DNA from: a virus
DNA: 26,970 nucleotides
Virus record (IMG/VR): IMGVR_UViG_3300049433_000288
Location: 1 to 26,970 of that record
Reading direction: 5' to 3' (one strand)
Numbering within the stretch: position 1 is the first letter of the stretch; every line of letters begins with the position of its first letter. Below, in pieces: positions 3,180-23,489 of this stretch. The position numbers were made by a program, and so were the translations under genes. The notes under the pieces are model-generated. The model was not told the DNA's origin, did not search any database, and saw only the letters and a list, made by a program, of their open reading frames with translations.

Positions 3180-4019
3180 TTACGGCTTTTTCGCTCTGCT
3201 ACACGACGCACAGCCTTTTGATTGTGGACGTGCAACCGTTTTTGTATCTGTCGTTTTGCTCACTACCTCATTAGCCACCGTAGGTCGATGCATCATTACA
3301 CCGGTAAACGTGATCGTAATATTTTGGCCGCAAGTGCCTGCCACACTCGATTGCTTTGTCAGAAGCAAAGACGGTGGACAACCGCCACAAGTGACCGGCG
3401 ACGTGCCTAGCCAAGAATTGCCGCAATCGGTTCCTCCACCGGTCATCGACACAAAGTAAGACCAATACGGCGCAACGCCCACGTCGGAAGAAACACAGTT
3501 GATTTCGATTTGCACGCTAGACGTTATGCCGGTTCCGGCATCCCCACCGGTATAGAAAAAAGTGCAAGGGATATTCGTTAGATTTGCGTTTGTGTAGTTG
3601 CCGTTTAAGTCGGCGCAACACGCATCACTTGCACCGGAAATGGTGATTCGATCCATATGACAACCAGTCAAATCCGTGCAATCAACAGTAGGGCATTGCG
3701 GACAGCACTTGTTTATATCTGTTGGCACACTGGGAGTAGGTGCATCGGCCATACCATCGCAATCACCGTCACTTGTGCAACATGATCCCATCGGCACGAA
3801 AATCTGATAGGTGCATCCGGTCGGACAGTTGATCGTTTTGTCCCATGTCAATAGCGGTACTTCGGATAGACATTGTTTAGCGCCCGGTGTGACTGTGCCC
3901 CACGTTTGGCTACCGGGCGCGTTATCATTACAGTTGTAATCAACCGTAAACTTTTGGAAACAGAGGTTGCCGCTTATGCAACAGCAAATACACGGAAAAG
4001 TTGTTGTTGATGTTCCCAC
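3180..4019 (-). CDS. Cysteine-rich distal tail-region protein, unknown
   Basis: Not assigned to a family. Seen: 27 cysteines in 279 residues (about 10%), many in pairs and triplets (CICCC near residue 10, SCC, KCC, ACC) and in C-x2-C or C-x3-C pairs, ending in GCASCSRAKKP. There is no signal peptide or membrane helix. A segment reading as beta strands contains ACCADLNGNYTNANLTNIPC (118-residue region onward), a CC-x-D-x-NG-x-Y pattern. The start is GTG, chosen because AGGGGTGG lies 6-7 bases upstream; it begins 10 bases after the stop of the preceding gene. As the last gene of the tail operon, after the tape measure, it could be a tail-tip, baseplate or adhesion protein, or an assembly factor. 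Whether the cysteines bind metal or form disulfides cannot be told. Confidence 0.75.
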   Translation of the reverse strand: MGTSTTTFPCICCCISGNLCFQKFTVDYNCNDNAPGSQTWGTVTPGAKQCLSEVPLLTWDKTINCPTGCTYQIFVPMGSCCTSDGDCDGMADAPTPSVPTDINKCCPQCPTVDCTDLTGCHMDRITISGASDACCADLNGNYTNANLTNIPCTFFYTGGDAGTGITSSVQIEINCVSSDVGVAPYWSYFVSMTGGGTDCGNSWLGTSPVTCGGCPPSLLLTKQSSVAGTCGQNITITFTGVMMHRPTVANEVVSKTTDTKTVARPQSKGCASCSRAKKP

Positions 4020-20298: not shown

Positions 20299-20973
20299 CT
20301 ATCGACTAATATTTTGTAAGTCGGTAGGTAGGTCTAATTGCGGAGCGATGTATTTGTACTGGTTGCGGATCTTGACGGCAGCACGTTGGCAAGCGTTGTC
20401 TACTGTTTTAAGCGTTACTTTTTTATTGCCTCTTACTTTGTGCTTATTGAGGTATTCGACAACGCGAGCGTAGGTTTCGCCGTGTAGCGCCGTCAGCACA
20501 AAACAAAGGTATTCGATTGCGCTCAAATACGGCTTAACCACTTTGGCGACTTTGCGGAGTCGCTTCGCTTCCATCAGGTCATCATTCGGATCGATTCGTT
20601 TGCAGGTCACAACATCACCAACGTCGCCGTCAAGTGAGACGGCTATACGATTGATCCGCCGCATGTCAGCGTTGGCGATGGTTAGCACGTTCATTAGACG
20701 CGAGTAATAAATCATGGAAAAGTACCCGACAAATCCGTCGTAGTTTTTTGAAGGATGCCGCGTAGGGTCATACTCCTTGATCGCTTTCATCAAGGTTAAC
20801 CGCGCCTCTTGCGTCAGGTCGTCAACGTCGGCAAGGCAAGGAAACCGTCGCATCTTTAGCCGTGCGATGGGTTGCACTCTCGCAAACAGTGTCTCAAAAG
20901 CGGCAGATTGCTTAACGCGGTCGCTGCCGCTCTGGTAGTCGTTAATGCATTGCGTGAGTTCGTCGGTAGTCAT
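20299..20973 (-). CDS. Phage-encoded sigma-70-family factor
   Basis: Likely redirects host RNA polymerase to phage promoters. Seen: region 2 at about 25-100 with DVDDLTQEARLTLMKAIKEY (51-68, the conserved DL.QEa...L..Ai..yDp core helix that binds beta') and FVGYFSMIYYSRLMNVLT (region 2.3-2.4); a linker with an acidic patch; and region 4 at about 148-205 with LSAIEYLCFVLTALHGETYA and a helix-turn-helix-like VTLKTVDNACQRAAVKIRNQ. At 224 residues it fits small group 3 sigma factors or phage late factors rather than ECF (region 2 plus 4 with long linker). No clear ribosome binding site. It heads the minus-strand gene array containing the fibre, terminase and head genes, so a late-gene activator role is plausible but inferred. 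Confidence 0.85.
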   Translation of the reverse strand: MTTDELTQCINDYQSGSDRVKQSAAFETLFARVQPIARLKMRRFPCLADVDDLTQEARLTLMKAIKEYDPTRHPSKNYDGFVGYFSMIYYSRLMNVLTIANADMRRINRIAVSLDGDVGDVVTCKRIDPNDDLMEAKRLRKVAKVVKPYLSAIEYLCFVLTALHGETYARVVEYLNKHKVRGNKKVTLKTVDNACQRAAVKIRNQYKYIAPQLDLPTDLQNISR

Positions 20974-21032
20974 TAATTGATGTTATCGACATAGCGGCAA
21001 AATCGGTCCGCGACATGCTATAGTCTTAAAAT

Positions 21033-21233
21033 CGCAAACATGGATTATTAGCGTAATACTCCATGCTTGCGAAAAGCCCCCTACGTCTATCACAAGCGCA
21101 AACATGATGTATTTCGCTGATACTCCATGTTTGCGCTTTTTCGTCCATGCTTGCGCCATGCTTGCGAAGTACACATTCATGGATTATTAGCTCAATACTC
21201 CATGAATGTGGTCATTTTTCGTCCATGCTTGCG
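21033..21233. repeat. Three 39-bp hairpin elements plus three half-sites (candidate origin or operator array)
   Basis: Elements at 21033-21071, 21097-21135 and 21172-21210 share an 11-17-11 layout. Arms: CGCAAACATGG/CCATGCTTGCG (one mismatch), CGCAAACATGA/CCATGTTTGCG, and CACATTCATGG/CCATGAATGTG. Loops are alike: ATTATTAGCGTAATACT, TGTATTTCGCTGATACT, ATTATTAGCTCAATACT. In the third element both outer arms change together, so pairing is kept. Extra copies of the half-site CCATGCTTGCG occur at 21145-21155, 21156-21166 and 21223-21233. The block fills the gap between the sigma gene and the primase-helicase gene. No protein gene is credible in 20974-21263. Confidence 0.9.
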
Positions 21234-21263
21234 ATGCGGAGGTGAGACGTAGGAAAATGACTA

Positions 21264-23489
21264 TCAAACGATGGCATCTGGGAGGTTCCAAAAGTATTCA
21301 CCACCGAATACCGGCCTACGCGATTTGAGTTTTAGACTCTCTCTCGCCGCTCGCAAAGCATATGTGGACAAACCCATTTTTGCCCCTTCACTCTCTAACA
21401 CACTAACCGCCGTCTCTCCGCAATCCGATAGCTTCTGACTCAACCATTCGACACATACATCCTTTTTGGTTTTGCTTTCCACGCTATCGACTCTGGTTAC
21501 ATCCTCTATCCGTTTGCTGGTCTCGCCGGTCCATTTTACGATTCCGTCGCTAATGGTGTAGGTGCAAGCTGGTAGTAATGGGCCGTAGTTATTTTTGTCA
21601 TGGAATAGGTAACGCTTGTCCGCCTCTTCTTTGTCGGATACCACAAAATGCACCGCTCTTGAAAGATCACGCCATGCGAGCGAACCTGATATGCGGTTGC
21701 TCATTGATTTTTTCTCATCTTTGTTCAAGTGCATTACCATGATAACCGCCAAGTTGTGTTTCTCGGCAAAGCGTTGCAACGGTGTTAGTACCCGTCGCAC
21801 GTCCGCCGTCTTATGTGAGTCGATGCCACTGACAAAAGAGGCAATCGGATCAATGATAATTAGCTTGGTTTCCGGCCAACGTGCTATAGCCTTTTCGAGC
21901 GTATCGAGGTCGCCAATATCAAAGTACGTTTCGTCGCCGTTGGTTCGTTGACCGTCTATCTTGTGTACCCGTGATAGATCCGCTCCTTGCTGCCGTAGCC
22001 GCTTTTTTACTACGTTGTCGCCGTCTTCACCGCTAAAGATGATCGCGTCTCCTAGCGGTGCCCTGTCGCCGTTGGGAAAAGTTCCACCGACTGACACTAC
22101 CGCCGCGAAGTCTACCGCCGCTGTGCTTTTGCCTTTGCCCCCTTCACCGGCAATCAATGTGAGATTGCCCATCGGTATACGGTTTAGCCACAACCAAAAT
22201 ATCTCCTCGCTGACAGTATCCCAATCGGTAACGATTAATCCGTCAGTGCCCTTTGGATCTATTGCCGATGATAGTACCGCCTTTGTCTTTGCTTTTAGTG
22301 CTGGTTCTATCTTGGCTCTAAAGTCTTTCCACGTTTCGTCGGAACAACTTGTGTGGCTACAGTGGTAACCATACCCATTTGGATAGACAAGAATATAAGA
22401 GTCGTTAGGTTTGTAGACACCGGATGCATGAACAAATGGACAAGTAACCCAGTATTTTTCAAAGCTGACACCGTCTTCATTCGTCGCCTTGCCCTTGCGG
22501 TCAATTATCACTTTATGGCGTTTGGCCCAGTCTTCTAACCATATTGCCTTTTCAGTTTTGTTAACGTGGTTCGCTTTGTTGGTTGACTCGGCTTTCGGCT
22601 TTTCGTCAAACTGGTCCTCAACGGTTGGTATGAGTGCCGGATCTTGCAAGGCATAGGCAAGCATCATATCCACGCCGTGGGCCGCTGTCAGCCATTTTGC
22701 GGCGTCAAAATCGTAGAAGCTACTCACAGCCTCACTTTTGTAATGCTTGCCGGGTAGTCGCACCCAGTTGCCCACGCCGTCAATTGGCAATGTCGATTGT
22801 TTCGGAAAGACTTCCGTTGACGGGTCCACGTCGGCAATCATTGCTTGTCCGAATGCTCTTGCTGTCGCCAACGGTATGAGCGTCCGAAAGAATACCCAAA
22901 TATGACAACCGCCCTTGCCGTTGCTTTCCTCAAGTAGCGGACGAATGCCCAGTTTGCGAATGTTGTCGCAAATCTTGAACGCGCGGATCAATGCCTCTGC
23001 GCGGTTTTCCGGTGTGTCGTCGCCGTGGTTATCGCTTTCGATGCAAACGCCTTTGGATTGCCAAGCATCATTGATCCTGCCTTGCATTAATATTCCCACG
23101 CGATGTCGCGGACTACCAAACGTGTTTGGGTAGTCTTTGTGCTTAAAATGACTGATAAGCTTTTCTGCGGTTAGCGGATCTTTGGCCGTGCTGACTGTCC
23201 ACCCTTTTGGATACTTCGGATTGGTACCATCGCTCAACCAATAATAGCCGTGGCGATTGGTAGTGACGATCCATTCTGTCATTACCTTATTCGCGAGTGC
23301 ATCCGCTTTTGTTGCAAATGCCTTTTCCTCAATAGTCGGCTCTTTTGGTAATGGTGGTGGCGTGACGAATAAATTGAAAATCTCATCTTCTGTCGTTGGC
23401 TCGGTCGTGGTTTCCGGTTCGCGTTTGAAAAGTTCGTTGAGGAACGACGCGTCCGCCGCGTCATTGTCCGTGTCTATCTCTGTAATCAT
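21264..23489 (-). CDS. Primase-helicase fusion (archaeo-eukaryotic-type primase plus RepA-like ATPase)
   Basis: Replication initiator of 741 residues that should lay primers and unwind DNA. N-terminal AEP-type primase (about 125-275): GVCIESDNHGDD with Glu151/Asp153 (motif I), LEESNGKGGCHIWVF with His196 (motif II, S.G.G.H.W), and IDGVGNWVRLPGKH (motif III region). A Cys/His segment (about 347-386: C350, C377, C382, H379) may bind zinc. C-terminal RecA/RepA-like ATPase: Walker A GEGGKGKS (448-455), 'IIFSGEDGD', Walker B LIIID (543-547), 'VIMVMHLNKDE'. A winged-helix-like tail (CVEWLSQKLSDCGETAVSVL) ends the protein. The ATG shares TAATG with the small upstream gene. Such fusions occur in phages and in plasmids, and the TOTE-like primase family is the nearest I recall. 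Confidence 0.9.
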   Translation of the reverse strand: MITEIDTDNDAADASFLNELFKREPETTTEPTTEDEIFNLFVTPPPLPKEPTIEEKAFATKADALANKVMTEWIVTTNRHGYYWLSDGTNPKYPKGWTVSTAKDPLTAEKLISHFKHKDYPNTFGSPRHRVGILMQGRINDAWQSKGVCIESDNHGDDTPENRAEALIRAFKICDNIRKLGIRPLLEESNGKGGCHIWVFFRTLIPLATARAFGQAMIADVDPSTEVFPKQSTLPIDGVGNWVRLPGKHYKSEAVSSFYDFDAAKWLTAAHGVDMMLAYALQDPALIPTVEDQFDEKPKAESTNKANHVNKTEKAIWLEDWAKRHKVIIDRKGKATNEDGVSFEKYWVTCPFVHASGVYKPNDSYILVYPNGYGYHCSHTSCSDETWKDFRAKIEPALKAKTKAVLSSAIDPKGTDGLIVTDWDTVSEEIFWLWLNRIPMGNLTLIAGEGGKGKSTAAVDFAAVVSVGGTFPNGDRAPLGDAIIFSGEDGDNVVKKRLRQQGADLSRVHKIDGQRTNGDETYFDIGDLDTLEKAIARWPETKLIIIDPIASFVSGIDSHKTADVRRVLTPLQRFAEKHNLAVIMVMHLNKDEKKSMSNRISGSLAWRDLSRAVHFVVSDKEEADKRYLFHDKNNYGPLLPACTYTISDGIVKWTGETSKRIEDVTRVDSVESKTKKDVCVEWLSQKLSDCGETAVSVLESEGAKMGLSTYALRAARESLKLKSRRPVFGGEYFWNLPDAIV

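Follow-up and report, generated by a model that had tools for sequence, protein, structure and literature searches.

The 290-bp block between the primase-helicase gene and the sigma-like gene of a 26,970-base virus record (the window, that is, the whole stretch of DNA analysed) is most probably a phage replication origin, in which 11-bp iterons immediately follow the gene for the initiator that would read them (probability about 0.85, judged from sequence). Sequence analysis and comparison with relatives establish the array itself and show that its position following AAA_25 replication genes is conserved. In the proposed mechanism, the C-terminal domain of the primase-helicase would bind the 11-bp iterons beside its own gene, the inverted pairs would help two oppositely oriented AAA_25 rings to assemble, the A+T-rich 17-bp centres would melt or extrude, and the fused AEP domain would lay primers on the opened strands. 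The steps of binding, melting and priming are extrapolated from SaPI, SCCmec, P4, pRN1 and RSF1010 (PMC7581432; PMC4234260). Among the sampled genomes, which centre on planctomycete and Armatimonadetes records, and among plasmids, arrays of this kind mark where an AAA_25 branch probably has its origins, and these candidate origins come with repeat sequences whose recognition is testable. The finding would also supply a candidate minimal replicon for use in bacteria whose genetic toolkit is small. A search of the literature, within its limits, returned no description of origins for the AAA_25 branch.

The unit of the array is an 11-bp iteron (CGCAAGCATGG / CCATGCTTGCG), arranged partly in direct orientation and partly in inverted pairs, the 17-bp centre of which is an A+T-rich near-palindrome. 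An earlier note on this DNA had described three 39-bp elements of 11-17-11 layout (HP1, HP2 and HP3) and three further half-sites, two of them in tandem, within a 290-base gap between the replication and sigma genes, and all of these are found at the positions listed in Table 1. Outward from the primase-helicase, the order is half-site, HP3, the two tandem half-sites, HP2 and HP1, and the edge of the array lies 30 bp past the stop of the primase-helicase gene, directly after the initiator gene. The cluster comprises seven copies of the 11-mer, direct and inverted (ten shuffles of the window reach three at most), and is the only array of such kind within the window.

Table 1. Features of the proposed origin and the adjoining genes (window positions).
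Feature	Positions	Strand	Remarks
HP1, inverted iteron pair CGCAAACATGG-17-CCATGCTTGCG	21033..21071	.	fold -19.7 kcal/mol on - strand, z -6.7
HP2, inverted iteron pair CGCAAACATGA-17-CCATGTTTGCG	21097..21135	.	fold -16.9 (-), -18.0 (+) kcal/mol
HP3, divergent inverted pair CACATTCATGG-17-CCATGAATGTG	21172..21210	.	fold -18.3 kcal/mol on - strand, z -6.6
Iteron CCATGCTTGCG, tandem pair, first	21145..21155	+	
Iteron CCATGCTTGCG, tandem pair, second	21156..21166	+	
Single iteron CCATGCTTGCG	21223..21233	+	
Whole intergenic region, proposed origin	20974..21263	.	lies between two ORFs; relatives keep the array in this position
Primase-helicase, 741 aa: AEP-TOTE primase domain, AAA_25 RecA-type ATPase, predicted helical (winged-helix-like) C-terminal DNA-binding domain	21264..23489	-	Pfam PF22548 4.5e-13, PF13481 5e-30
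C-terminal domain, proposed iteron binder	21267..21533	-	inferred from conservation up to LP motif in relatives
Sigma-H-like RNA polymerase sigma factor	20299..20973	-	

When compared with 200 shuffles each, HP1 to HP3 fold with z values of -5.4 to -6.7, with no shuffle as good, and they beat the shuffles on either strand. In HP1 and in HP2, a single arm pair is imperfect, being A.C when read on the + strand and G.U on the - strand. HP3 differs from the iteron sequence at three positions, each changed identically on both arms, and it is from HP3, not from the other two hairpins, that the covariation described in the earlier note comes. A search of the array against Rfam matched no family, and promoter and terminator scans remained at chance level. 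The GC skew across the window makes no clear switch at the array, which counts against the origin reading and left the skew check proposed in the earlier note uninformative; nor was a strongly A+T-rich stretch found beside the array, a further point on that side. A 9-bp perfect long-range inverted repeat (CCTACGTCT / AGACGTAGG, at window 21080-21088 and 21245-21253) encloses HP2 and HP3.

The gap is bounded by the sigma-like gene and the stop of the primase-helicase gene, and the 65-aa ORF that overlaps it (20983-21180, - strand) shows no sign of being a gene. The C-terminal part of the primase-helicase aligns across relatives and is conserved up to an LP motif, after which the arrays start. 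Single-sequence AF2 prediction of this domain gives three helices at low confidence (pLDDT 55), too weak for a fold search, and a sequence search of solved structures matched none.

Direct searches for relatives of the primase-helicase found none, and the hairpin DNA gave no match, with the proviso for both that records very near the window may be outside the coverage; since no close relative was found, the array of the window is not comparable base by base. Relatives of the terminase are only 28-38% identical and have no array at the terminase end, and an AEP motif search of viral contigs returned only proteins matching in the AEP domain. A motif-steered search of genome contigs, in which the decoy rows around the conserved motifs were invented variants used for steering only, led to a contig of an Armatimonadetes MAG (L108) that encodes the same AEP-TOTE and AAA_25 fusion at 27% identity. 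Because three inverted pairs of TTCCAGATGCTCAT lie at the 3' end of this gene, it was hypothesised that array and replication gene belong together, and the hypothesis was then tested on new loci. Within the phyla of three anchor genomes, several dozen more AAA_25 homologues were found, and the best of them, at 37% identity, came from the phylum to which a Phycisphaerae MAG belongs; hence the host of the window phage may be a planctomycete. The phylum sample around a Lentisphaerae MAG gave no homologue. Overall, the distant homologues are about 26-39% identical over the AAA_25 and C-terminal part.

Whole loci, mostly of ~19 kb, were scanned for 11-mers that recur four or more times inside 300 bp, copies on either strand and one mismatch being allowed, and a cluster was counted if it fell between -100 and +700 bp relative to where the AAA_25 match ends. 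Such clusters are present in 27 of the 56 loci, window included, against 0.78 predicted by the background rate in the remainder of those loci, and at none of 17 terminase gene ends. The positives include the window and L108, both of which were known beforehand and prompted the search, as well as some that are weak or mutually related (L249, L254, L257; L256 with L259); dropping the known, weak and related loci leaves the conclusion unchanged. The other 29 loci are without an array at the scan threshold, which counts against the origin reading.

In many loci the arrays mix direct and inverted 11-mers, for example as 11-21-11 (L271), 11-16-11 (L243) and 11-13-11 (L261). The iterons vary by element, and many have a common core near AAGATGCTC (CCAAGATGCTC, CAAAGATGCCC, CGAAGATGACC, TTAAGATGCTC, CAGATGGTCAA). 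Similarity among iterons correlates with similarity among Rep proteins (Mantel r 0.33 for the C-terminal domain and 0.39 for the AAA core, p <= 0.003), although the C-terminal domain gives no stronger a correlation than the ATPase core; such a correlation is as expected if the protein reads the repeats. The primase halves encoded at the arrays are either AEP-type (window, L108 and the plasmid pCG2) or TOPRIM-type (L185, L277), which indicates that the partner of the array would be the shared AAA_25 and C-terminal half. In several relatives the coding frame extends into the array, whereas in the window it ends before it. An integrase gene ~1 kb past the array gives two relatives the rep-origin-integrase order of integrative elements. 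At L237:9633-9760 and L239:10169-10325, the frame coding for the Rep C-terminal tail contains the array, and an integrase gene follows ~1 kb on. A motif CCCAGTARTA (AGCCCAGTAGTATCAAGGG and variants) occurs between the iterons at L108:11924-11960, L185:10915-10940 and L191:8290-8330. Strictly periodic inverted iteron pairs are seen at L267:1-280 and L271:1-290, and as these run into the contig end, the full arrays would be longer.

The same layout, again with element-specific repeats, is kept in plasmids (pCG2 and L277). The free plasmid pCG2 from Corynebacterium glutamicum (NC_004534.1, 6,758 bp) encodes a Prim-Pol and AAA_25 protein; nowhere on the plasmid are repeats denser than in the cluster that begins 38 bp after this gene, with six copies of a CACATACATAC-type repeat and long inverted pairs at L276:2375-2640. 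It is like the window in its Prim-Pol and AAA_25 protein and in having repeats within 40 bp after the gene, many of them inverted, but the repeat sequence is different. In a Streptomyces plasmid, four repeats start 91 bp after the gene of a TOPRIM and AAA_25 protein. The literature searched yielded no experimental paper on the pCG2 origin; the plasmid offers a tractable model for the AAA_25 family.

Fusions of AEP primases to helicase and winged-helix domains are widespread among mobile elements, and a survey of AEP families proposed the C-terminal winged helix only as a possible origin reader (PMC5862659). The present sequence comparisons fit the idea of that survey that this domain may recognise origins. 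The statement of the earlier note that no named element has this form was too strong, since the block has close functional counterparts in the origins of SaPI, SCCmec, P4 and pRN1. In SaPI and SCCmec (cch2), the origin follows immediately downstream of the gene for the initiator helicase, whose C-terminal domain binds it (PMC7581432). The window shares with SaPI rep-ori and SCCmec cch2 the short repeats directly downstream of an initiator helicase gene and the C-terminal domain as reader (predicted in the window); their helicases, however, belong to other families and priming is carried out by separate proteins, whereas the window has an AAA_25 helicase fused to an AEP primase and 11-bp iterons in facing pairs. 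In pRN1, the origin is a stem-loop downstream of the primase-helicase gene that needs to be intact (PMC4234260). As in the window, it lies just after the gene of an AEP primase-helicase with a C-terminal winged helix (again predicted in the window), but it consists of one ~100-nt stem-loop with no iterons and is served by an SF3 helicase. The three 39-nt hairpins of the window, which are built from iterons, and its AAA_25 helicase set it apart from the pRN1-type stem-loop origins. The P4 alpha protein, a primase-helicase-winged helix fusion that binds repeats at its own origin (PMC4234260), resembles the window protein, the winged helix and repeat binding of which are predicted; its primase is of the bacterial TOPRIM type, and the likeness is by description. 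Finally, the RSF1010 origin combines iterons with the short stem-loops ssiA/ssiB for priming (PMC4234260). The window likewise combines iterons with short stem-loops, the use of which in priming is a proposal, while RSF1010 relies on three separate proteins and its ssi sites are distinct from the iterons.

An alternative is a composite origin, in which the hairpins, extruded or single-stranded, would serve the primase-helicase for priming or loading in the manner of ssiA/ssiB of RSF1010 or the pRN1 stem-loop, and the single iterons would be the binding sites. This is unlikely, but it keeps a modest chance, since the arms of HP3 pair perfectly though the iteron sequence is lost, the imperfect arm pairs are G.U on one strand, pRN1 needs its stem-loop intact (PMC4234260), and in 19 of 23 arrays of relatives the best hairpin, often long, beats nearly all dinucleotide shuffles. 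The members of inverted pairs in the relatives nevertheless agree with each other no more than with other copies (p = 0.41), and permutation of partners within arrays leaves complementarity unchanged in the iteron (P = 0.21), the inner flanks (P = 0.74) and the outer flanks (P = 0.90). In the absence of such pair-specific complementarity, the idea that pairing is selected across the whole family was dropped, and the claim of the earlier note that pairing rather than sequence had been kept finds no support in the relatives. As partners match no better than other copies, the hairpins would follow from the inverted iterons and, as far as these data tell, are in the family a by-product of facing iterons. 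HP3 is the exception, both of its arms having changed alike in a single event that a plain iteron does not explain, and this too counts against the origin reading; it may point to a role of the hairpin itself or to one arm having been copied onto the other by quasi-palindrome correction. Such correction could produce HP3 without selection, and the strand is indicated by two mismatches only, both of which weigh against the composite origin. About as unlikely is a two-layer origin, in which the iterons would load the AAA_25 helicase while the fused primase domain would read the three hairpins as folded DNA and set the primer starts, one protein thereby reading the sequence and the shape of the origin.

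Iteron arrays often have control roles, and the array could instead be a copy-control or autoregulatory element that the primase-helicase binds to limit replication, like P4 crr or iteron handcuffing, with the true origin elsewhere. The missing skew switch would suit this explanation, which appears distinctly improbable given that the window holds no other such array and that the strongest array of pCG2 follows the rep gene. Less probable again is the idea that the block is a structured RNA or an operator belonging to the sigma-like gene's 5' region: it does lie upstream of that gene in the direction of transcription and folds well as RNA on either strand, but it belongs to no Rfam family and shows no pairing covariation, and the arrays of the relatives follow the rep gene with an integrase or other genes downstream. 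Accordingly, an operator array of the sigma gene is disfavoured, as are the late-region operator array and the set of structured RNAs offered in the earlier note, while the iteron-bearing replication origin that the note named first gains strong support from the comparison with relatives.

Apart from the genes already mentioned, the window contains serine recombinase, tail, head and portal genes besides the terminase gene. The sigma-H-like factor encoded by this small phage adjoins the proposed origin. A tRNA-Arg (TCT) is predicted at window 3324-3397 (- strand), within an ORF at 3180-4019 (- strand); one of the two calls, ORF or tRNA, is doubtful, or the tRNA is phage-borne.
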